DNA of 64,000 nucleotides, from assembly GCF_039645975.1 (NCBI RefSeq), contig NZ_CP147918.1, positions 930,001 through 994,000 on the forward strand, read 5' to 3'. The stretch is from Sulfurimonas sp. HSL-1716. Lineage in GTDB: Bacteria > Campylobacterota > Campylobacteria > Campylobacterales > Sulfurimonadaceae. Below are positions 50,010 to 63,383 of the stretch, in pieces. The notes beneath the pieces are model-generated. The model saw nothing but the letters and a program-made list of their open reading frames with translations. It was not told where the DNA came from and ran no database searches. Within the stretch, counting starts at the first letter, position 1. The number at the start of each line of letters is the position of its first letter. The position numbers and the translations under genes are program-made.

Positions 50010-50716
50010 CGATGATAGAGAAGTTTACGGAAGTACTTTGCAGGTTTTCCACGCGGGATGAGGGAGGCAACCTCGCTTTTCATGTAGGCGACGACATAAA
50101 AGCCGTCGATGCCAACCACGCGCTTCTGGCACAAAAGCTCGGCTATAACAAAGATGTTTTGGTGCATATGAAGCAGATACACTCCGACATCGTCCATGTC
50201 GTGACTCCAAAAGACACTTTTCATACTCCGCCGACCTGCGACGCACTCGTGACAAACAGAAAAAACGTTCCTCTTATGGTAATGGTCGCAGACTGCACTC
50301 CGGTGCTTTTTTACGACCCCGTGCACAAAGCCATCGGCGTAGCACATGCGGGTCGTGCGGGAGCGTTTGGCAACATTGTCAAAAACGTAGTGCAGACGAT
50401 GCAAAGCGAGTACGGTTCAAACCCGCAAGAGATCATCGTCTCCGTTGGCTCTGCCATCGGCGTGTGCTGTTATGAGGTCGGCGAAGAGATATATGAAGAG
50501 AGTAAAAAGGAGTTTGGTTACGCTTTTGAAAAACACGCAGGGAATTACTACCTCGACATAAACAAGATCATACTCACACAGCTAAAAGAGTGCGGCATAC
50601 AAGAGGAGCACATACAAAACGACGGTGTCTGTTCCGCCTGTAACACAAAAGAGTATTTTTCATACAGAGCGGAGGGGCAGACGGGCAGGTTCGCAGGCAT
50701 CTTGATGCTGAAATGA
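50006..50716 (+). CDS. pgeF: PgeF/YfiH-type multicopper-like protein
   Basis: A 236-residue member of the laccase-domain (Cu-oxidase_4) family. E. coli YfiH (PgeF) removes wrongly incorporated L-Ser from peptidoglycan precursors; other members act on nucleosides. The conserved metal-site blocks are MKQIHSDIVHV, VMVADCTPVLFYD, GVAHAGRAGAFGNIV and the Cys-containing CSACNTKEYFSYRAEGQTGR. The start overlaps the protease gene. Its last ~52 bases recur 1559 bases downstream, after the SDR gene (see repeats). Confidence 0.93.
   Translation: MTMIEKFTEVLCRFSTRDEGGNLAFHVGDDIKAVDANHALLAQKLGYNKDVLVHMKQIHSDIVHVVTPKDTFHTPPTCDALVTNRKNVPLMVMVADCTPVLFYDPVHKAIGVAHAGRAGAFGNIVKNVVQTMQSEYGSNPQEIIVSVGSAIGVCCYEVGEEIYEESKKEFGYAFEKHAGNYYLDINKIILTQLKECGIQEEHIQNDGVCSACNTKEYFSYRAEGQTGRFAGILMLK
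50664..50716 (+). repeat. Direct repeat A, copy 1 (3' end of pgeF)
   Basis: The last 17 codons of pgeF including the stop. A near-identical copy lies at 52223-52274 in the same orientation: four base differences and one missing base. The two copies enclose the SDR-DUF2867 gene. Confidence 0.9.
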
Positions 50717-50743: not shown

Positions 50744-52168
50744 ATGAAGGTACTACTCACGGGTGCAAACGGATACATAGGCAGGCGGTTAAAACAACAT
50801 CTTTTAAAAAACCGAGAAGTCCAGCTAAGAATCTTTGTGCGGAATAAAAAAAGTCTTTCTCCTGAAGTGCTTGCAGTGCATGAGATCATAGAGGGTGACA
50901 CATTCGATAAAGAAGCGCTAAGAAATGCACTAGAAGGTGTAGACACGGCTTATTATCTTATCCATTCGCTCAACAAACCAAACTACAAAGAACTCGACAA
51001 ACTTTCAGCCCAAAACTTCATAGACACAGCGACGGCATGCGGAGTAAAAAGAGTGGTATATCTTGGCGGTCTTGGTGTAAAAAACAGCGATACGAGCGAA
51101 CATCTTTTGAGCAGGCTCGAAACAGGAGAGATACTAAGCTCTTCAAAAACGACACAGACTCTCTGGATCAGAGCGGGCGTGATCATCGGTTCGGGAAGTG
51201 CAAGCTTTGAGATCATCCGTCATCTTGTAGAAAAACTCCCGGTACTCATAACTCCCAAGTGGGTCGATACTCTCGCACAGCCCATTGCAGTCGATGATGT
51301 TATCGACTATCTTGCTTCATCTTTGTATCTTAAATACGACAAAAACCTCATTGTTGATATCGGCTCCGAAAAGATGCCCTATAGGGAAATGATGCTTCAA
51401 ACCGCAAAGGCTCTGGGTCTGAAAAGGTACCTTCTTCCTGTACCCTTTATGAGCATCAATCTTTCATCTTATTGGCTCAATCTTTTCACTCCCGTTCCGT
51501 TTAAGGTCGCAAAAGCACTTATAGAAGGGTTGAGATCGGAAGTCGTGATACAAAATGACAATGCGCAAAAATATTATCCGCATATCAAGCCGATGGCCTA
51601 TGTTCAAGCCGTGCAAAAAGCTGTGGATGAGATAGAACAACAACAGGTCATCAGCAGATGGAGCGACGCAGACGGAACCATGTGGGATAAAGCACATGCA
51701 AAGCAGATAAACGATGCAGTTTTTGTGGACAGGCAGGAGGCAAGCATAGACGGTTACGATAAAGAAAAAGTTTTTAAAACCATCACTTCCCTCGGCGGAG
51801 GGCACGGATGGTATGACTACGACTTTTTGTGGGAGATACGAGGTGTTATCGATAAGATTCTCGGCGGCGCAGGACTCAACAGGGGAAGAAGAGATATCTG
51901 CGATCTGAGATTGGGCGAGTGTGTGGATTTTTGGAGGGTGGAAGATATAGAACCAAACCAAAGACTTCTGCTGTTCGCGCAGATGAAACTCCCCGGACAA
52001 GCTTGGTTGGAGTTTAAGATAATCGACAACAGGCTCATCCAGTCCGCATATTTCTACCCTAGAGGAATATGGGGCAGAATCTACTGGTATGCCATGAAGC
52101 CTATGCACTTCTTTATTTTTAAAAACATGATAAAGGGGATATTAAACGAGAGCGCTCAAAGAGAGTAG
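50744..52168 (+). CDS. SDR-type NAD(P)-binding protein with C-terminal DUF2867
   Basis: A 474-residue two-part protein. The N-terminal half is an atypical/extended SDR with the nucleotide loop LLTGANGYIGRRLKQHLL and a family-like VYLGGLGVKN strand. The C-terminal half (from about residue 300) is DUF2867, with GGGHGWYDYDFLWEIRG and AWLEFKIIDNRLIQSAYFYP. The fusion is common but its substrate is unknown. GAGGAG precedes the ATG. It is enclosed by two copies of the pgeF 3' end, so it appears to be a later insertion at this locus. Confidence 0.9.
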   Translation: MKVLLTGANGYIGRRLKQHLLKNREVQLRIFVRNKKSLSPEVLAVHEIIEGDTFDKEALRNALEGVDTAYYLIHSLNKPNYKELDKLSAQNFIDTATACGVKRVVYLGGLGVKNSDTSEHLLSRLETGEILSSSKTTQTLWIRAGVIIGSGSASFEIIRHLVEKLPVLITPKWVDTLAQPIAVDDVIDYLASSLYLKYDKNLIVDIGSEKMPYREMMLQTAKALGLKRYLLPVPFMSINLSSYWLNLFTPVPFKVAKALIEGLRSEVVIQNDNAQKYYPHIKPMAYVQAVQKAVDEIEQQQVISRWSDADGTMWDKAHAKQINDAVFVDRQEASIDGYDKEKVFKTITSLGGGHGWYDYDFLWEIRGVIDKILGGAGLNRGRRDICDLRLGECVDFWRVEDIEPNQRLLLFAQMKLPGQAWLEFKIIDNRLIQSAYFYPRGIWGRIYWYAMKPMHFFIFKNMIKGILNESAQRE

Positions 52169-52222: not shown

Positions 52223-52274
52223 ACAAAGCAGAGGGCAGACGGGCAGGTTCGCAGGCATCTTGATGCTCAAATGA
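52223..52274 (+). repeat. Direct repeat A, copy 2 (stranded 3' end of pgeF)
   Basis: Not part of any gene. It still encodes the pgeF C terminus GQTGRFAGILMLK and its TGA, but a missing G breaks the frame just upstream. It abuts the stop of the convergent CHASE2-HD-GYP gene at 52275, which suggests that this is where pgeF originally ended. Confidence 0.88.
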
Positions 52275-54182
52275 CTATTCCGTTATACGTTCCGCTATCT
52301 CTTTGAACTTCTCTTTTATCTCGATGAAGATATCTATGAGCACGGGATCGAAATGCGTTCCTTTGCCTTCGATGATGATCTTCTCGGCTTCTTCGTAGCT
52401 AAACCCCTCTTTGTAGCATCGTTTGCTTATAAGTGCGTCATACACGTCAGAGACAGCCATCAGGCGTGCTTCAAGAGGTATCTCCTCTTTTTTCAGACCG
52501 ACGGGGTAACCGCTTCCGTCCCATTTTTCATGGTGGTAGTAGGCTATGTTGTAGGCTATCTTTAAAAACTCGTTCTCTTCGTTGCCCTCTATGGCGTGTT
52601 CGAGGATGTTTTTGCCCAGCGTCGTATGAGTCTTCATGATCTCGAACTCCTCTTCGGTCAACTTCCCCGGTTTTTGCAGTATCTTGTCGGGGATCCCGAC
52701 TTTGCCTATATCATGCAAAGGCGCAGCCCTGAACATAAGGTCTCTGAAATTCTTTGTCAGCTTGTCTTTGCACATCTTGTTCGTGTGCATATGATCCACC
52801 AGAAGCGCTATATAGTTCTTCGTCCGTAAAATATGCGCACCCGTGTCCGTATCTCTTGTCTCGGCGACCAGCGCCATGTTGTCCAGAGTCGCAGAATGCG
52901 CCTTGACAAGATCTTGTATAAACTTCTGCCTGTCTTTGTAGTCGATGATAATGACGATGACGTTTACGATAAAGAAGTAGATGCCAAAAGGGATCAGAAA
53001 GTATCCCGACGAGATGTAGACGTTGCGGTCCAGATAGTAGACCCCGAGAAAATATTCGATCACGATCGCCGATGAAAAGAGGATGAAAAGTTTTAAGTAA
53101 TCCCTTTCTATCAGCAGATATACCAGCAGAAACGATAACAACATCGAAACAAAGAAACTGACCTTTTTAAGGAGTTCGGGCTGGTATTTCAGAGTGTCGT
53201 TCATGATATTGTCTATCAGAGCCGCATGGACGAACACGCCTGGGATCGTACGTGAAGCGGAGATCATGTACCTGTCATGCAGACCTACCGCCGATGTGCC
53301 TATGAGGACAAACTTTCCTTTTAGTTTTGTCAGGTCGGTATGACCGCTGAGAACGTCCACGGCCGAGAGGACGCGGTAATCTTTCGTATTGTGAAAATCA
53401 AGCAGCACCTCGGCGTTTTTCCCCATATGAAAACTCTGCCCTAGGACCGATATCTTGTCATCGGCGACACTCAATCTGTCCACGCTTGAAAGGGTCGCGA
53501 GTCCCAAAGAAGGAATGACCCTGTCGTGGTACTTTATGAAGAGCGATGTTCTTCTGAAGATGCCGTCGGCATCTCTTTGTGAGTTTATGAAACCTATGCT
53601 AAAAGCCTCTTTTTGAAGTTCTCGGATATTGCACAGCATATAGCTCGCTTCGATATATTTCTGCGAAGAAGAAGAGGGAAGGATGTTGTTTTGGGGGATG
53701 AAACAGCGGCCGTTAGGGTGTATCTTGTTGCTCAGATAGACCGGCAGGACGGTTTTCGTCTCTTTTAGTATCTGGGCAAAGAGCTTGTCGTTATCCATAA
53801 GCGCATCTGGGAGTCCGTCTATTTTGATCTTTGTCGAAAAGTACTTGTCATAAAAGGAGAGCATCTCTTTTGGGGAGGTTTTGTCATGTTCTGGGAAGAT
53901 GATGTCAAAACCTATGCTGGCAGGCTTTTGAGAGGCGATCGTCTTTACGAGATTTGCCAGTATCACCCGCGACCACGGCCACTGTCCCAATGCAGCCAGA
54001 CTTTTCTCATCGACATCGATGATGACAACGGGCGCCTGCGTTTCTTTGTCATATAATTCGGCTGCTTTGTATGTGTAGTCATAGATCTTAAGATCGTAGT
54101 ACTCTATGACACCGCTGTAAAATACCGCCGCATATATGACAACGGTAAAGAGAAACCCCAAAAGAAGCGTCGACTTTTTCAT
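52275..54182 (-). CDS. CHASE2 sensor / HD-GYP c-di-GMP phosphodiesterase
   Basis: A 635-residue membrane signalling protein. An N-terminal helix (LLLGFLFTVVIYAAVFYSG) leads into a periplasmic CHASE2 sensor domain, recognisable by VIIDVDEKSLAALGQWPWSR and PASIGFDIIFPEHD. Three transmembrane helices follow at about residues 340-410, then a cytoplasmic HD-GYP domain with TGAHILRTKNYIALL, PLHDIGKVGIPDKIL (about residue 490) and the complete HHEKWDGSGYPVGL (about 550). It should hydrolyse c-di-GMP in response to a periplasmic signal. It follows the FecR and OmpA genes, six bases downstream of the latter, as one operon. Confidence 0.95.
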   Translation of the reverse strand: MKKSTLLLGFLFTVVIYAAVFYSGVIEYYDLKIYDYTYKAAELYDKETQAPVVIIDVDEKSLAALGQWPWSRVILANLVKTIASQKPASIGFDIIFPEHDKTSPKEMLSFYDKYFSTKIKIDGLPDALMDNDKLFAQILKETKTVLPVYLSNKIHPNGRCFIPQNNILPSSSSQKYIEASYMLCNIRELQKEAFSIGFINSQRDADGIFRRTSLFIKYHDRVIPSLGLATLSSVDRLSVADDKISVLGQSFHMGKNAEVLLDFHNTKDYRVLSAVDVLSGHTDLTKLKGKFVLIGTSAVGLHDRYMISASRTIPGVFVHAALIDNIMNDTLKYQPELLKKVSFFVSMLLSFLLVYLLIERDYLKLFILFSSAIVIEYFLGVYYLDRNVYISSGYFLIPFGIYFFIVNVIVIIIDYKDRQKFIQDLVKAHSATLDNMALVAETRDTDTGAHILRTKNYIALLVDHMHTNKMCKDKLTKNFRDLMFRAAPLHDIGKVGIPDKILQKPGKLTEEEFEIMKTHTTLGKNILEHAIEGNEENEFLKIAYNIAYYHHEKWDGSGYPVGLKKEEIPLEARLMAVSDVYDALISKRCYKEGFSYEEAEKIIIEGKGTHFDPVLIDIFIEIKEKFKEIAERITE

Positions 54183-54187
54183 CTAGG

Positions 54188-54784
54188 TCATCTTATGAGC
54201 AGTTCTACCCTGCGGTTTTTCTCTTCGGAGACGTTGTCTCCGGTCGGTACCAGCAGATTTGACTCTCCGTAAGATTCCACATGCAGTTTGAGGATATCTA
54301 CGCTTTGTGACTGGATCCACTCTTTAACGCTGTTGGCTCTCTCTAAAGACAACACTACGTTGTGTTCGGCGGAGCCCTTCGTATCGGTATGCCCGATAAT
54401 ATTTACCTCACAAGGCATCCTGTCTTTAATGTCTTTGAGTATCTGCGGAAGTTTCGCTTTGGACTCGTCCGTCAACTCGTTTGAATCGTTTTTAAAATAC
54501 AGCAGCACGCTTATGGGTTTTAAAGGCGCACTTGCGATCGCGCCTTTAAATCTGCTTTGTATCTGCTCTTTTGTCATCACTTTTACGCTGCTCGGAGCGC
54601 TGTTTTGCGATGAGAGGCTTACGTATGAGCCCGGCTTGTCAAGAACGACCGAACCCTTTTTTGTCTTTACGACGATGGCGTTCTCTGCTTTTCCGTTATC
54701 TGCAAGTACTACGGTCGTGGTCGGATTGCTCATCATCCCGGCTATCAATATCCCCAGCCATGCGATCATTACTATCGGTTCCAT
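54188..54784 (-). CDS. OmpA/MotB-domain protein
   Basis: A 198-residue envelope protein. A short N-terminal hydrophobic segment (VMIAWLGILIAGMM) precedes about 80 linker residues and a C-terminal OmpA-like peptidoglycan-binding domain: LLYFKNDSNELTDESKAKL, IIGHTDTKGSAEHNVVLSLE-type segment (in part), RANSVKEWI and EEKNRRVELLIR, whose conserved Asp and Arg bind diaminopimelate. Its start shares a base with the FecR-domain gene stop. In this operon it may fix the sensor system to the cell wall (inference). Confidence 0.92.
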   Translation of the reverse strand: MEPIVMIAWLGILIAGMMSNPTTTVVLADNGKAENAIVVKTKKGSVVLDKPGSYVSLSSQNSAPSSVKVMTKEQIQSRFKGAIASAPLKPISVLLYFKNDSNELTDESKAKLPQILKDIKDRMPCEVNIIGHTDTKGSAEHNVVLSLERANSVKEWIQSQSVDILKLHVESYGESNLLVPTGDNVSEEKNRRVELLIR

Positions 54785-55206
54785 TACCTGACCTCCACAT
54801 AAAACTTCGTACCGCGTATCCCGATGGTCCCTTCGGGGACTTTGAATTTTACGGACTGAGGGGAAAGTTCGCTGATCTTGCCCGACTCAAAGGATGCGAC
54901 CCCTTTGTGCAGGTCTATATCAAACTTGTAATCTTTTTCGACAGGTTTGAAAAGATACTGGTCTATGGAAAGGACGCTTTTTTCACCCAGCGACACGATG
55001 GTGCCGTCATGAAATATGACCCCTATGCTGCTGTGAAGCCGTGTTATGAGGGTATCGCCGACTTGAAGCTGATCGCCGATCTTTAGTTTGACCATTTCAC
55101 TCTTTCTTTTAGCGAAGACTTCACCGTCGAGCTTTTTGACAATAGCGATATCCGCTGAGAACAGGCAGGAGATGAAGAGAAGCATTAACAAGGATACTCG
55201 TAGCAT
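54784..55206 (-). CDS. Exported FecR-domain protein
   Basis: A 140-residue periplasmic protein. The signal peptide is VSLLMLLFISCLFSADI; the rest is a FecR domain with KLKIGDQLQVGDTLITRLHS and the typical end GTIGIRGTKFYVEV. FecR domains often occur next to CHASE2 proteins, as here, and may serve as ligand or adhesion modules. It is the first gene of the FecR-OmpA-CHASE2/HD-GYP operon. Confidence 0.9.
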   Translation of the reverse strand: MLRVSLLMLLFISCLFSADIAIVKKLDGEVFAKRKSEMVKLKIGDQLQVGDTLITRLHSSIGVIFHDGTIVSLGEKSVLSIDQYLFKPVEKDYKFDIDLHKGVASFESGKISELSPQSVKFKVPEGTIGIRGTKFYVEVR

Positions 55207-55240: not shown

Positions 55241-55729
55241 TTATACTCTCATTTTCTTTGTTTTTTTTAAGATTTTTGATTTAATGAACTCTTCTGTGAA
55301 CTTTAGCATGTTCTTGTAGTGGTCGCCGTGCCAGTACACCCTGCCGCACTCTTTGCACTTTTCAAAGGTGTCGAAATACTTTCTGGTCTTAGCTTTGAGC
55401 TCTTCGATGACTTCCAGCTTCTCTATTTTTTCAAGCTCGCCATTACACTTGATGCATCTGCTGAGCGGCTTGGTCTTGTCAAAAAGCTTGTAGTGGTGAA
55501 ATATCTCTTTTAACTGCTCCTCATACCCTGCATGGACAAGATACAAAGCGTCGTGATGTTTCATCCTCTGGTAGAGTATCTTGTCGCTCGTGAGAAGAAA
55601 ACGCTCCTCTTTTTGCGCGATCTCTATGATGTCGTCATCGTCTATGCTCTGAAAGTAAAGTGTGTCAAAGCCGAATATCCGCAGATACTTGGCGATCTTT
55701 CCCAAATGGCAGTCGGCTATGAATTTCAT
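55241..55729 (-). CDS. Mut7-C family PIN-like RNase with zinc ribbon
   Basis: A 162-residue protein of the Mut7-C family, a PIN-fold RNase domain with a C-terminal zinc ribbon. KFIADCHLGKIAKYLRIFG supplies the first catalytic Asp, FLLTSDKILYQR the second, and two pairs, CIKC and CKEC, bind zinc. The ATG at 55729 begins the domain exactly; a TTG ten codons earlier is the only longer start. A TATAAT six bases before the ATG, without a ribosome-binding site, suggests leaderless translation. Its first 16 codons recur at 56415-56483. Confidence 0.9.
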   Translation of the reverse strand: MKFIADCHLGKIAKYLRIFGFDTLYFQSIDDDDIIEIAQKEERFLLTSDKILYQRMKHHDALYLVHAGYEEQLKEIFHHYKLFDKTKPLSRCIKCNGELEKIEKLEVIEELKAKTRKYFDTFEKCKECGRVYWHGDHYKNMLKFTEEFIKSKILKKTKKMRV

Positions 55730-55749
55730 GGGATTATTATAGCTTATAT
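55681..55749 (-). repeat. Direct repeat B, copy 1 (5' end of the Mut7-C gene)
   Basis: Covers codons 1-16 of the Mut7-C gene plus 20 bases upstream with the -10 box. It matches 56415-56483 at 63 of 69 positions without gaps. The four coding differences are all synonymous. Confidence 0.92.
55736..55741 (-). promoter_or_regulatory. -10 box of the Mut7-C gene
   Basis: On the minus strand TATAAT stands six bases before the ATG. It is retained in the second copy (56470-56475), where the six-base spacer has changed at two positions. That placement predicts a leaderless transcript. Confidence 0.5.
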
Positions 55750-55830
55750 GAAAGTTCAAACTACTTTGGAAATGTGAATTTAATGATACAATTATCTAAC
55801 CTCTTGTTCGTTATAAAAGGAAAGTGACCT

Positions 55831-56400
55831 ATGATCCCGTTTAACTATCTAGGATTTGTCTTTAAACACTTTAGCTCCTCTTTATACCCAAAGAAGGTGG
55901 TGGAAGAACTTTGCATGTTCATAAAACCGTTATGTGACGAAGCATCCGTTTTAGACATCGGAGCAGGGACAGGAATGATGTGCGAGTTCGCATACAGATG
56001 CAATCCCAAGCTGAGATATGTAGCAGTAGACCCGGCGAAGGGTATGCTCAAATATACCGAGGAGTATGTAGAAGTACATACGGCAACTGCAGAAGCGCTG
56101 CCTTTTGATGATGATAGTTTTGATGCCGTACTCATGGGAGAATCACTACACCATCTTACTGATCCGGATATGGCTATGAAAGAAGTTGTAAGGGTTCTCA
56201 AAAAAAACGGAAAACTCTTTATTTATGATTTTGATAAGGGAACGTTTTTGGGCAAGAGCCTCTGGGCTATGGAAAAACTTCTCGGTGAACCTGCTCATTT
56301 TTATGAGGTACATGCACTAAAAAAGATGCTTGAAGAGCATGGTTTTCATGTACATGTAAGTCAACATAAGTGGCGTTACAGTGTAAGTGCTGCTTTATAA
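55831..56400 (+). CDS. Class I SAM-dependent methyltransferase
   Basis: A 189-residue Methyltransf_11/UbiE-like enzyme. SAM-binding motif I is VLDIGAGTGMMCEFA (about residues 43-57), followed by AVDPAKGMLKY, the post-II motif FDAVLMGESLHHLTDPD and VVRVLKKNGKLFIYDFDKG. The substrate is unknown. It is divergent from the Mut7-C gene and lies between two copies of that gene's 5' end, so it is probably an acquired gene. AAAGGAAAG precedes the ATG. Confidence 0.9.
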   Translation: MIPFNYLGFVFKHFSSSLYPKKVVEELCMFIKPLCDEASVLDIGAGTGMMCEFAYRCNPKLRYVAVDPAKGMLKYTEEYVEVHTATAEALPFDDDSFDAVLMGESLHHLTDPDMAMKEVVRVLKKNGKLFIYDFDKGTFLGKSLWAMEKLLGEPAHFYEVHALKKMLEEHGFHVHVSQHKWRYSVSAAL

Positions 56401-56414
56401 ATATCTTATCTTTT

Positions 56415-56483
56415 GCAGATACTTAGCGATCTTCCCTAAATGGCAGTCAGCTATGAATTTCATGGGGTGATTATAGCTTATAT
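56415..56483 (-). repeat. Direct repeat B, copy 2 (stranded 5' end of the Mut7-C gene)
   Basis: Encodes MKFIADCHLGKIAKYL on the minus strand with its own -10 box, then runs into non-coding DNA. It lies 734 bases from copy 1 in the same orientation, between the methyltransferase and darT. Confidence 0.92.
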
Positions 56484-56557
56484 AAGAATTTATTTTATAT
56501 ATAGTAAAATAGATTTAAATTATCTTGTAAAATTCAAGTTAATAAAAGGAAATGGGT

Positions 56558-57157
56558 ATGCCCAAAAATATTAAAGATGGAAAGTTATTATATCATTTGA
56601 CTGCTTTGTCGAATATGGATTCAATTTTAAGAGATGGTTTGAAAGCTAGATCAAATTTGAGTAGTGATTTTAAAGATGTTGCTGAACAAGACATAATAGA
56701 TTTTAGAAATAAACATAAGATATCTTACCTGATTCCTTTCCATTTTTTCTTAGGTACACCATTTGCTGGAAGAGTTCAAATGAATCATCCAGACGAAGAA
56801 TTTGTATATATTACCATTCGTAGAAGAATTGCAGCTAATAAAGAAAATGATTTCAGAATCTTCCCGACACATCCTAAACATATGAATCCTTTAGTAAGTT
56901 ATGATTATGAAGAGGGAATTGAAAAAATTGATTGGGAATTAATGAACGAACGAGAGTATTCTAATCCAGAATGTAAAGAAGTTTGTATGGCAGAATGTGT
57001 AGCTAATCATGAAGCTATTTTACCAGGAGCGTTCCAGTCGATTATTGTCAAGTCTGAAACAACAAAAAAATACATACAAGAGTTATACCAAAGTATTTAC
57101 GGTAATAGTCCTTCTTTCTTTATAAATGTACAAGCTCAGTCTTTTAAAGGACATTAA
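56558..57157 (+). CDS. darT: DarT-like DNA ADP-ribosyltransferase toxin
   Basis: A 199-residue DarT-type (DUF4433-related) enzyme; known DarTs attach ADP-ribose from NAD to bases of single-stranded DNA and block replication. The N-terminal NAD-site segment is LLYHLTALSNMDSILRDGLKAR. IPFHFFLGTPFAGRV matches the conserved P-F-x-F turn, and the catalytic Glu should be that in VCMAECVANHEAILPGAF. AAGGA seven bases upstream supports the ATG at 56558 rather than one two codons earlier. DNA is conspicuously AT-rich compared with neighbours. The antitoxin gene follows five bases later. DarT family assignment rests partly on that partner. Confidence 0.85.
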   Translation: MPKNIKDGKLLYHLTALSNMDSILRDGLKARSNLSSDFKDVAEQDIIDFRNKHKISYLIPFHFFLGTPFAGRVQMNHPDEEFVYITIRRRIAANKENDFRIFPTHPKHMNPLVSYDYEEGIEKIDWELMNEREYSNPECKEVCMAECVANHEAILPGAFQSIIVKSETTKKYIQELYQSIYGNSPSFFINVQAQSFKGH

Positions 57158-57162
57158 TTACA

Positions 57163-58188
57163 ATGTATACATTAACAACTGGAAATATTTTAGAAAGTGA
57201 AGCTGAGTGTTTAGTCAATACTGTGAATTGTGAAGGATTCATGGGAAAAGGGCTTGCCTATCAGTTTAAAAATAAATTTCCTCTAACTAATGAATCTTAT
57301 ATGAAAGCTTGTAAAAGTCATGAATTACATCCTGGAAAATTACATTATTTTTTTGAAAATGAAAAATTAATTATTAATTTTCCTACAAAAGATAAATGGC
57401 GAGAAAAATCTAAGATAGAATATATTGAAAATGGTATGAAAGCCTTAGTAGACTTATTAAAAGAAAAAAATATTCAATCAATAGCGATCCCACCATTAGG
57501 AAGTGGAAATGGTGGATTGAACTGGAAAGAAGTCAAAAAAGTTATAGAAAGTTATATATTTCCTCTTTCAAAAGAAAAGGATATATATGTGTATGAACCT
57601 GCATTAATGTATAAGGCAGATGTAAAGAAAGCTCCAAAGTTAACAATGTCTCATATGATATTGATGACCATTAAAAAAGAATTAGATAAGTTCTCAAAAA
57701 TAAGATTACAAAAAGCTGCTTTCTTTATTAATGTTTTAAGTAGAAAAGATTATTTTAAATTTCAAGCACATCACTATGGTCCATATTCATATGCAATAGA
57801 TATATTGTCAAGAGACATTAAAGAGTTTCAAGAATTTCATAAATTTCAAACAGAAAAAGCATTAGCAGTAGCTCATCAAACTTTAACTAGTGAGAAAATG
57901 GAAAAAGAATTGTCAATGTTTTTACCTTTCATTAAAAAAGCTGCAAAACTAGTTAATTCATATTCATCCAATGAAAAATTAGAATTAATAGCCACAGTTT
58001 GTTTTATTATTTTAAATAATCAAAACATAAATGAAGTGGAAGTTATCAAAAAGCTCCATGAATGGTCTGAAAAGAAAAAAAATAAGTTTTCTCAAACTGA
58101 TATTTCAAATGCTATTAATGAATTGTTGAATTTAAATATTATACGTAAAGATATTCTTGGAAATTATAGTATAAATTATAGTCATTAA
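57163..58188 (+). CDS. darG: DarG macrodomain antitoxin
   Basis: A 341-residue DarG. The N-terminal macrodomain (about residues 1-150) contains TTGNILESEAECLVNTVNC, GFMGKGLAYQFKNKFP, IINFPTKDKWREKSKIE and IAIPPLGSGNGGLNW, the ADP-ribose-binding loops that remove DarT's DNA modification. The C-terminal part (about 165-340) has LQKAAFFINVLS and HHYGPYSYAIDIL, matching the DarG toxin-binding domain. The ribosome-binding site AAAGGA lies inside the end of darT. The AT-rich composition shared with darT marks a two-gene module acquired together; family members act as toxin-antitoxin and phage-defence systems. Confidence 0.93.
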   Translation: MYTLTTGNILESEAECLVNTVNCEGFMGKGLAYQFKNKFPLTNESYMKACKSHELHPGKLHYFFENEKLIINFPTKDKWREKSKIEYIENGMKALVDLLKEKNIQSIAIPPLGSGNGGLNWKEVKKVIESYIFPLSKEKDIYVYEPALMYKADVKKAPKLTMSHMILMTIKKELDKFSKIRLQKAAFFINVLSRKDYFKFQAHHYGPYSYAIDILSRDIKEFQEFHKFQTEKALAVAHQTLTSEKMEKELSMFLPFIKKAAKLVNSYSSNEKLELIATVCFIILNNQNINEVEVIKKLHEWSEKKKNKFSQTDISNAINELLNLNIIRKDILGNYSINYSH

Positions 58189-58196
58189 ACTTTTTA

Positions 58197-60566
58197 TCAC
58201 AACTCCACAATCCGCTCAAACATCTCTTTTATCTCCATCTCGTGGCTTATCAGAAATATTTGTCGGTATTGCTCTTTGATGGTGTGGAATGCTTCTAGTA
58301 TCTCCATCCGTCTGTTTTCGTCCTGACTTCCAAACACCTCGTCAAATGCCAAAAACTCTACGCTTGAAGCACCACTGAGTTCCGTGAGGGTCTTTGAGAT
58401 GGCGATGCGCAGGACTAGGTTCGCGAGGTCTACCTCTCCGCCTGAAAATCGCTCGATCGGGTACTTTTTGCCCTCGTCGTAGATGAAGAAGTCAAAGTCG
58501 TTGCTCACCTCTATGTGCTGGTACTTGCCTTTGGTGATGCGTGCGTACATCTCCGAGGCGATGCTCGATATCCTCGGTGCTACCTGAGAGTTGAGACGGG
58601 TCTTGAACTCGGCTAGGCTTGTCTTGATCTTTTCAAAGTCCGTGAGGTCGTCTTTTTTGCCTTGCACCTTTTTGAGCTGTGCGTCGTTGTTGTCCAGAGA
58701 GTTTTGGATGCTCTTTATCTCCCCTTCGATGCGTGCTATCTGCACCTTTAACTCGTTTATGACCGCCGTTTTCTCATCTATGGTCTTTATGATGGCATCG
58801 TGCTCTTCAAGTGTCTTTTCGTGCTGTTTTTCATCGTAGATGATGCTTTTAAACTCCGTGTCTTTGTTCTTACATGTAAGGGCTAGCTCGGCTATCTTTT
58901 TGTTGACGTTCTCCAAGTCCGACTTCACAAGCACGAGGCGTTTTAGCTCCGTCTCTAGGCTGAGTGCGTGTTTGTACTGCGGCTCTATGGCGCTAAGGCT
59001 GTTTTTGAGTTCATTGTGCAGTTTCTCGTCGTAGCTGTAGGCTTCGAGTGCTTTTAGTTCCTCTTTGTTCTTTACACCTTTTTGCTCCACTTGGGTGAAG
59101 TGCTCTTTTGCTTTTTTGAGGTCTATGAGCTTGCTCTCTATGATCTTTATCTTGCCGCTCAGCTCTGCGAACTCTTTGTCTTTGAGCTTTTTTTGTGCTT
59201 CGAGGTCGGCTTTTTGGGTCTGTACGGCTAAGAGCTGTTTTTTGTACTCGTCTACCTTTTTTTTGTGGGTGTTGTTGACGATGTCTACAAGCGACTTGAT
59301 GACGTTGTCATACTCCTCTAAAAGCGGTCTTGTACATGTAGGACAAGCCGACTCGCTTCCGAGCTCCTTGAGGTTTGCTATCTTGGCGTTTGTTCTGTCT
59401 ATGAGCTTCTGTTCGCCCGCCATCTCTGCAAGGAGTTCGCGCTCTATGGTGTGCTTGACCTCTATGTTGTCTTGACGTATGGAGAGCTCCTGCTCCAGGT
59501 TTTTTGCATCGAAGGTGAACTGCTCATACATCTCGCACTCTTTTTCAAGTACATGGATGTCGGCTTTTGACTTGTGCCACTCGTCCGTGAGGGCTTTTTG
59601 CTCTTTGAGGATACCCTCTTTTTTGAGGTGGAACTCTCTGAGCTGTTCTTGCTGTTTGATCTGCTCTTGCAGCTGTGTGAACTGCGCTTTTTGAGGTTCG
59701 AGTGTCTTTAGTTCGGCTTGTTTGTGCTCGAGCTGATGCAGTTCCGCCGTGAGCTTGACATGGTTCATTACCTCGGAGTCGTGTGCCTGCTGGGCGCGTT
59801 CAAACTCTGCAAAGAGCTTTTGTTTCTGCTCTTTTGTCTTGGTAAGGAGGGAGAGCTCTTGTTTAAGATGCTGTTCTCTTTGTCTGATGTGAGAGAGTTC
59901 TTCGCTCTTGCTCTTCTCATCTTTTAAAAGAGCAGACTTGCTCGCTTCATCGGCTTTTATCTGCTCGAGCTTCTGTTTTATCTCATCATCGCCGAGGAAT
60001 ACCTCTTTAAACGCTTCTATCTCGCGTTTGAGCTGACGGCTCTTTTCTATGAGGCTGTTTTCTACGAAGTCTATTTTCTCCAGCCCCAAGAGCTTACGTA
60101 TCATCCTCTTTCTGTCTTCATTTTTAAGAGTGCTCAGGCTTGTGAGCTCTTTTTGGGAAGCGAAGAGGGTGTGCATGAAGGCGTCTTTGCTCATCTTGGT
60201 TATCTTGACGATGGAGGAGGTCACCTCTTTTGCTCCGCTTGTTATGAGCTCTTCGTTTTTAAAGAGTTTGGCGTTTGCGGTGAGTGTCTTTCCTCGAAAC
60301 TCTCTAACGACCCTGAATGTCGCACCCTCATACTCAAACACAAGTTCCACTACGACAGCGTCTTTTGCAGAAGCGTCGGCGTTACGTATGAGATCTTTGT
60401 TTCCTCGGCTTTTCATCTCGCCGTAGAGGGCTAAAAGGATCGCTTCAAAGATGGTGGACTTTCCGCTTCCGTTCTTGCCGATGATCCCCACAAGCCCCTC
60501 GCCGAACTCGATGTCAAAAGCGGTGTACTTTTTGAAGTTTTCCAAGTGGAGGCTAGAGAGTATCAT
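58197..60566 (-). CDS. sbcC: SbcC exonuclease subunit (Rad50-like ATPase)
   Basis: A 789-residue SMC-type ATPase that works with SbcD to cut DNA hairpins and blocked ends. Walker A is GIIGKNGSGKSTIFEAILLA (residues about 28-47). Two long coiled-coil arms flank the zinc hook CPTC near residues 405-410. The C-terminal half has the signature RFSGGEVDLANL, then Walker B EFLAFDEVFGSQD. The ATG at 60566 has AGGAGG six bases upstream and begins the conserved ILSSLHLENFKKY strand; the frame extends 19 codons further inside sbcD without support. Its stop lies eight bases from the convergent darG stop. Confidence 0.95.
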   Translation of the reverse strand: MILSSLHLENFKKYTAFDIEFGEGLVGIIGKNGSGKSTIFEAILLALYGEMKSRGNKDLIRNADASAKDAVVVELVFEYEGATFRVVREFRGKTLTANAKLFKNEELITSGAKEVTSSIVKITKMSKDAFMHTLFASQKELTSLSTLKNEDRKRMIRKLLGLEKIDFVENSLIEKSRQLKREIEAFKEVFLGDDEIKQKLEQIKADEASKSALLKDEKSKSEELSHIRQREQHLKQELSLLTKTKEQKQKLFAEFERAQQAHDSEVMNHVKLTAELHQLEHKQAELKTLEPQKAQFTQLQEQIKQQEQLREFHLKKEGILKEQKALTDEWHKSKADIHVLEKECEMYEQFTFDAKNLEQELSIRQDNIEVKHTIERELLAEMAGEQKLIDRTNAKIANLKELGSESACPTCTRPLLEEYDNVIKSLVDIVNNTHKKKVDEYKKQLLAVQTQKADLEAQKKLKDKEFAELSGKIKIIESKLIDLKKAKEHFTQVEQKGVKNKEELKALEAYSYDEKLHNELKNSLSAIEPQYKHALSLETELKRLVLVKSDLENVNKKIAELALTCKNKDTEFKSIIYDEKQHEKTLEEHDAIIKTIDEKTAVINELKVQIARIEGEIKSIQNSLDNNDAQLKKVQGKKDDLTDFEKIKTSLAEFKTRLNSQVAPRISSIASEMYARITKGKYQHIEVSNDFDFFIYDEGKKYPIERFSGGEVDLANLVLRIAISKTLTELSGASSVEFLAFDEVFGSQDENRRMEILEAFHTIKEQYRQIFLISHEMEIKEMFERIVEL

Positions 60567-61671
60567 CTGCTGCCTCCTCATACTCTGCAAAGAGCTCTTG
60601 GACTTTGTGTTTAAGTCTTTCAAACTCCTTCTCTTTGCTATCCTCTTTGATGTGTTCGAGAAAAAACTCTTCTAAAGAAAGTGCTTCGACATCACGGGCA
60701 GTGCTTTCGTTTGTTCCCTGTTTAAACTCCCGTTTGACGCTTACATGTAAGGCATCAGGAAATAGTTCTTTTATGGCGGAGTTTTGGATGTCTATGGACT
60801 GCAACGCGGTAAGGTTTGTAAGACGTATCTCCACAAGCGCATCTTTGACGTCGCTTGTGTCGAGCTTTGAGACGGAGCTTTCATACTCCTCGCAGTCTAT
60901 CTCTTTTTGCACTATGGGGCGGATGGCTATCTCTTTGTATTCCACCGACAAAGTCTCTTTTAACGTGAGAAGGACAAACCCTTTGGAGTTGCGTTTGTCG
61001 CCCAGACTTGTGCGCTCGATCGAACCGCTGTAATAGACGTTCTCATGTTTGCCGACCTTTCCAAAACCGTGCCAGTGACCAAGAGCCACGTAGTCCATCA
61101 TCTTGAAGATGTACTCTTTATCACTTGGGTAGACCCACTCGCCAAACTCCTGCATCAGGTAAAATGCGCCCACGGAGCAGTGCATCATCATGATGTTCTT
61201 TTTGCTTTTGTCTATGTTTGCTTCGCAGAGTTCTATCTGCGAGAGAGCCTTTGTCTCGTCGTTCATGTGGGGCAGGGTGTGAAAGAGGACATCGCTAAAT
61301 GCCACCTTTTTATATGCCTGCTCGTAGGAAAGATAGACGTTTTTAAAGTTCTCGAATATCTTGAGTATGGGTGAGCTTAGATTTGTTCTGGGCGTAGAGT
61401 GGTTTCCCGCTATAAGGATGAAGGGGATGTCAAGAGAGTCTATGATCTTAAACTGTTCAAGTGCAAATGTGATGGCGCGGTTTGACGGGTGTGAGCGGTG
61501 AAAAAGGTCGCCCGTGTGGATGATGTAATCTGGTTTTATCTCTTTGATCTGCTCTACTACCTGAGAGAAAGCGTCGTAAAAGTCCGCTTCCCTTTGGTTG
61601 ATGTTGTCATCGTTTAAGACATCGAGGTCGTTAAAACCCAGATGCGTGTCGCTAAAGTGTATGATCTTCAA
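60553..61671 (-). CDS. sbcD: SbcD exonuclease subunit (Mre11-like nuclease)
   Basis: A 372-residue metallophosphoesterase nuclease, partner of SbcC. All Mre11-family metal motifs are present: HFSDTHLG, IHTGDLFHRS, LIAGNHSTPR, MMHCSVGAF and ALGHWHGFGK. The C-terminal capping and SbcC-contact region is acidic. The start is a TTG preceded by GGGAAG. Its last 14 bases overlap sbcC. It lies 46 bases after the DUF2905 gene in the same direction, so glmU-DUF2905-sbcDC could be one transcript. Confidence 0.95.
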   Translation of the reverse strand: MKIIHFSDTHLGFNDLDVLNDDNINQREADFYDAFSQVVEQIKEIKPDYIIHTGDLFHRSHPSNRAITFALEQFKIIDSLDIPFILIAGNHSTPRTNLSSPILKIFENFKNVYLSYEQAYKKVAFSDVLFHTLPHMNDETKALSQIELCEANIDKSKKNIMMMHCSVGAFYLMQEFGEWVYPSDKEYIFKMMDYVALGHWHGFGKVGKHENVYYSGSIERTSLGDKRNSKGFVLLTLKETLSVEYKEIAIRPIVQKEIDCEEYESSVSKLDTSDVKDALVEIRLTNLTALQSIDIQNSAIKELFPDALHVSVKREFKQGTNESTARDVEALSLEEFFLEHIKEDSKEKEFERLKHKVQELFAEYEEAADDTL

Positions 61672-61717
61672 AACAGCTTCCCGATAGAGTTTTAAACATT
61701 CTACCTAAAAGTTCGGA

Positions 61718-63223: not shown

Positions 63224-63239
63224 TATTTATACTTTTTAT

Positions 63240-63317
63240 TAGACTTCTTGCATAACCCCTGATAACCTCAGAGAGCTAAAAAGCGGTAAGGATAACAAGG
63301 GTTTTGCAAGAAGTCTA
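63240..63317. mobile_element. MITE-like inverted-repeat element, 78 bp
   Basis: Terminal inverted repeats AGACTTCTTGCATAACCC (63241-63258) and GGGTTTTGCAAGAAGTCT (63299-63316) match at 17 of 18 positions, with a TA at each outer edge as a possible target duplication. The 40-base centre encodes nothing. It lies in the divergent space between glmU and the small ORF at 63384, and could affect the glmU promoter or form a transcript hairpin. The termini resemble those of insertion sequences with GACTT..TTGCA-type ends, but no transposase is present. Confidence 0.65.
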
Positions 63318-63383
63318 TGGAATTTTATAAGTGTGATTATACTATAATTGCGTAATTGAATAGTTAAGAAGGCAGCCACAAAT

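Follow-up and report, generated by a model that had tools for sequence, protein, structure and literature searches.

The window analysed here is a 64-kb stretch of the closed, 2.26-Mb genome of Sulfurimonas sp. HSL-1716 (G000 in our genome labels). An intact gene for a Mut7-C protein of about 161 residues (55244..55729, reverse strand; an open reading frame matching PF01927, E 9.1e-47) lies beside a forward-strand gene for a SAM-dependent methyltransferase of 189 residues, hereafter MT (55831..56400; PF08241, E 8.6e-23), which is conserved in many family genomes. Stand-alone Mut7-C proteins of bacteria have no assigned function (PMC11347159). Beyond MT and its 14-base 3' flank (56401..56414) follow two adjacent forward-strand genes that pair a DarT domain with a macro-domain DarG, namely darT (56552..57157; PF14487, E 3.4e-15; PADLOC DarT, E 4e-32), encoding a predicted single-stranded DNA thymidine ADP-ribosyltransferase toxin, and darG (57163..58188; PF01661; PADLOC DarG, E 4.8e-97), encoding the predicted macro-domain antitoxin. 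No close homologue of darG was found in the other 227 family genomes, the best matches standing at 37-48%. The locus is completed on the reverse strand by sbcC (58197..60557; 94.4% identical to the sister species G006) and sbcD (60553..61671; 97% to G006 by tblastn), both assigned by length, domain-typical sequence and synteny. On the far side of Mut7-C, between it and the pgeF repeat described below, a gene cluster at 52275-55206 is absent from the corresponding place in G006; its CHASE2-like/HD, OmpA-like and FecR-like genes were identified by eye from their sequence. Just 5' of glmU (63227-63330) lies an imperfect inverted repeat of 42 nt around a 20-nt loop, which may be a terminator or a small element.

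MT is enclosed by two copies of the 5' end of the Mut7-C gene. Copy 1 (55681..55749, reverse strand) consists of the first 16 codons and 20 upstream bases of the intact gene, and copy 2 (56415..56483, reverse strand) is the stranded 5' end of a second Mut7-C allele. A direct-repeat search returned the pair just as an earlier, sequence-only reading had described it, with 63 of 69 bases identical, 734 bases apart and in the same orientation; the repeats exactly bound an insert of 665 bases, and the extended pair (55681-55756 and 56415-56490) is 88% identical over 76 nt. Searched against the whole genome, the repeat has no match outside these two copies (E 4.9e-34 and 3.3e-22), and it is therefore neither a chance similarity nor the dispersed element that the sequence-only reading had named as a possible refutation. 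The copies have a TATAAT-like box in common and differ at upstream positions -6 and -4 and at positions 14, 26, 29 and 38 of the reading frame (0-based). Codon comparison confirmed that each encodes MKFIADCHLGKIAKYL, all four coding differences being synonymous. Beyond its 16 codons, the copy 2 frame enters the MT flank and ends after 22 codons. Local direct repeats of at least 40 nt within 6 kb occur only twice in the window, the other pair being formed by the last 42 bases of pgeF (50675-50716), which recur 1558 bases on (52233-52274; 41/42 identical over the coding end) and enclose an SDR-like gene (50744-52168).

An important question is whether copy 2 is simply a recent, decaying duplicate of its neighbour. 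Over these 69 bases, which are too few to date the copies, the two differ from each other at six sites, and each differs from the single G006 copy at four. At three of the four differing coding sites copy 2 has the G006 state and copy 1 is the odd one out; at sites 14 and 26 the third species, G007, also agrees with copy 2 and G006. Copy 2 was thus not derived from copy 1 after copy 1 and G006 had separated, and we reject a recent local duplicate. The sequence-only reading had come to the same view from the synonymous nature of the coding differences, an argument that is weak, because three of the four changes separate two intact genes (copy 1 and that of G006), in which changes would be expected to be synonymous. 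This leaves a single coding change peculiar to copy 2, and a neutral change would be synonymous here with a chance of about 0.19-0.26. The conclusion that the copies differ in descent nevertheless holds, and exchange with a relative is real, given the shared states with G006 and the similarity of the Mut7-C-MT segment to that species (94.6%, against about 80% elsewhere).

This similarity is confined to two patches. DNA identity between the window and G006 is 94.6% over 55284-56414 (Mut7-C and MT) and 94.4% over 58199-61710 (sbcCD), compared with 78-84% in most syntenic blocks over about 100 kb; two blocks beside glmU reach 85-87%, and long blocks in a 20-kb sample from a distant part of the genome reach 80-83%. 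Given this contrast with the surroundings, Mut7-C-MT and sbcCD crossed between species recently; the two segments were shared of late by the G000 and G006 lineages, and the island between them was not. Its edges are abrupt. Identity ends at 56414, precisely before the first base of copy 2, and restarts at the sbcC stop codon, remaining near-uniform within sbcC with no transition zone. The sequence encoding the C-terminal tail of Mut7-C (55244-55283) diverges from G006, whereas G006 and G133 agree there, which fits a crossover at this point that left the resident tail in place. The gene order in G006 is pgeF, Mut7-C, MT, a Gp49/HTH toxin-antitoxin pair, one further gene, HerA, SIR2, sbcC and sbcD, and it has one copy of the repeat only, copy 2 being absent.

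The sequence-only reading had proposed to look in relatives for matches to either copy and for empty sites. Copy 2 has the G006 state at three of the four coding sites, as described above, and G003 has a site that is empty for Mut7-C. In that genome, which lacks Mut7-C altogether, pgeF is followed directly by MT, so that the site is not empty for MT. Among the eight genomes of the genus, only those of the window and G006 carry an intact Mut7-C; in the family, 19 of 228 genomes have matches, several of them broken. MT orthologues occur in G006, G007, G003, G117 and others, with flanking genes that vary between species. G007 has a similar scar, its order being MT, a Mut7-C 5' remnant of about 11 codons, an OLD/AriA-like ATPase gene, sbcC and sbcD, with no intact Mut7-C in the genome. 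The join there connects the last MT codons to codon 11 of the remnant inside a common AAAG, with loss of the MT stop, and the remnant carries a K2N change. The stop codon of the ATPase gene (3576-5492 of L062) overlaps the Mut7-C promoter-like box. In G117 several genes separate MT from sbcC, the first two being an acylphosphatase-like gene and a further small gene. In G133, where MT is absent from the site, sbcC is followed by a TPR gene, an acylphosphatase-like gene, two small genes and an intact Mut7-C, and in G139 an array of toxin-antitoxin and macro-domain genes, followed by the G133-type small gene, meets the Mut7-C 5' end. Decayed Mut7-C genes are found at the sbcC locus of G107 and G236; in the former (7778-8421 of L083) a 130-residue gene sits within the broken Mut7-C, whose 5' remnant has missense changes and a stop. 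Between conserved flanks, the cargo at the MT-sbcC site is thus darTG in the window, SIR2-HerA in G006 and the OLD/AriA-like gene in G007. The stretch between sbcC and either MT or Mut7-C therefore varies in its cargo, a large part of which is defence-related, and no integrase or phage genes were seen at the island site.

These arrangements suggest which copy travelled with which partner. Since Mut7-C and MT form a unit in G006, MT probably belongs with the intact copy, and as the 5' end of Mut7-C lies directly against island genes in G007, G133 and G139, the stranded copy probably belongs with the darTG side. The proposal of the sequence-only reading that either MT or darTG had come with a copy therefore stands in this form, but not in the form of an MT cassette that brought both repeats. 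We lean, with moderate confidence, towards the repeat being the scar of interspecies recombination at a defence hotspot between Mut7-C/MT and sbcCD. The stranded copy would be the 5' end of a Mut7-C gene that formerly closed the darTG island. One parent would have had the order sbcD-sbcC-darTG-Mut7-C, with nothing between the island and the 5' end of Mut7-C, as in relatives with other cargo, and the other a G006-like order of Mut7-C-MT-(other island)-sbcCD. DNA of the second type would have replaced or joined the first through exchange between homologous Mut7-C and sbcC sequences; at codon 16, the Mut7-C of the first parent would have been joined, with no detectable homology, to the MT 3' flank, leaving the first 16 codons and promoter box of that gene stranded beside darTG. 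Natural transformation with one illegitimate end may have been the route. We infer the darTG/Mut7-C parent type, how the events were ordered, which way the DNA moved and how it was taken up; no genome with an sbcC-darTG-intact Mut7-C arrangement was found among the 228 of the family. In favour of this explanation we count a ComEC-type competence protein encoded in the genome, the failure to find Ku there, and the second scar of like topology (pgeF-SDR-pgeF 3' end) about 3 kb away. A literature search on competence in Sulfurimonas gave no usable report. A later entry of darTG by a crossover inside sbcC was also considered and left no trace, identity being near-uniform up to the stop; such a crossover could still have fallen very near the stop.

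The main rival is deletion in place. Copy 2 would then be what is left of an intact Mut7-C that lay convergent to MT, between it and the island, and lost its 3' part, the Mut7-C on the left having been gained separately. The order MT-remnant-island-sbcC in G007, which has no left copy, speaks for this, as does the decay of Mut7-C in place at the sbcC locus of G107 and G236; moreover, a small deletion between AAAG repeats in a junction like that of the window could account for the one in G007. The two genomes could indeed share a single ancient MT/remnant junction that was shortened afterwards in G007; the event would then predate the exchange between G000 and G006, and deletion in place would be favoured. 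However, the order that it presupposes (MT-intact Mut7-C-island-sbcC) is seen in none of the 228 family genomes, and, as G006 matches up to the exact start of copy 2 without having that copy, a further break at that very base would be needed. On balance we regard it as rather unlikely.

Tandem duplication of Mut7-C-MT within one genome, followed by loss of most of the second unit, would directly yield the order Mut7-C, MT, Mut7-C fragment. Copy 2, however, shows none of the changes peculiar to copy 1 and agrees with G006 at those sites, which excludes a recent duplication, and beyond about -21 its upstream sequence is the upstream region of darT rather than that of MT, so that we consider this origin improbable. 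The exact flanking of the insert and the variable neighbours of MT among species could also point to a mobile cassette inserted at the Mut7-C 5' end, with either a 69-base target duplication or a replacement gene end. Yet MT is alone in the insert with no recombinase, the repeat search revealed no terminal inverted repeats, and repeats of this kind do not surround MT in G003, G117 and many other genomes; to our knowledge, target duplications as long as 69 bases are not typical of transposition, and a cassette seems very improbable. Finally, retention of copy 2 for a function, such as a promoter antisense into MT or a short peptide, might be suggested by its TATAAT-like box and 16 intact codons but is scarcely credible, given that it is absent from the MT-keeping G006, G003 and G117 and that the G007 remnant, with its K2N change, breaks off at codon 11.

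How does recombination at a defence hotspot, the reading we prefer, compare with known systems? Some integrative elements restore the end of their target gene, so that, as here, one border has a complete gene end and the other a displaced one; the insert in the window differs in having no recombinase, in involving the 5' end of a protein gene and in the divergence of its copies. Anti-phage defence hotspots have fixed flanking genes and exchangeable cargo. The site in the window resembles them in its fixed sbcCD neighbour and its cargo among relatives (darTG, SIR2-HerA, OLD/AriA-like and toxin-antitoxin genes), and differs in its small cargo, in edges at gene ends and in having no visible integrase or phage genes. 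PMC9519451 deals with such hotspots. Homology-facilitated illegitimate recombination in competent bacteria takes the form of one homologous side and one illegitimate join (PMC3240628). Here the homologous anchor is Mut7-C and/or sbcC, shared by the two haplotypes, with identity to G006 breaking at 55284 and 58199. The join of the MT 3' flank to Mut7-C codon 16 is non-homologous, a side-by-side comparison by eye of MT flanks and Mut7-C alleles revealing no microhomology at 56414/56415, and foreign DNA appears to have been added with a partial gene left behind. The window case is, by contrast, read from end products alone, and exchange extending to sbcCD makes it a mosaic. Transformants often carry discontinuous donor segments (PMC13344027), and the two patches of equal, unusually high identity that flank the unmatched island are reminiscent of these; the difference is that the present case is interspecies, with a background of about 80% and a large non-homologous island between the patches. 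That the locus is a new example of a known process, a recombination scar at a defence hotspot, is well supported. Truncated Mut7-C 5' ends at codon 16 in the window, codon 11 in G007 and near codon 10 in G107 could further mean that the Mut7-C 5' end beside sbcCD is a preferred breakpoint for integrase-free swaps of defence islands, but we think this quite doubtful.

The scar is a neat but ordinary trace of the exchange of defence genes among bacteria. Its value is that it can be read, revealing which gene probably travelled with which partner, and it shows that Mut7-C-MT and sbcCD were recently common to two species of the genus and that defence modules beside sbcCD turn over without a visible integrase. 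The second scar, at a distance of some 3 kb, suggests that imports of this kind could be mapped across a genome by looking for stranded gene ends.
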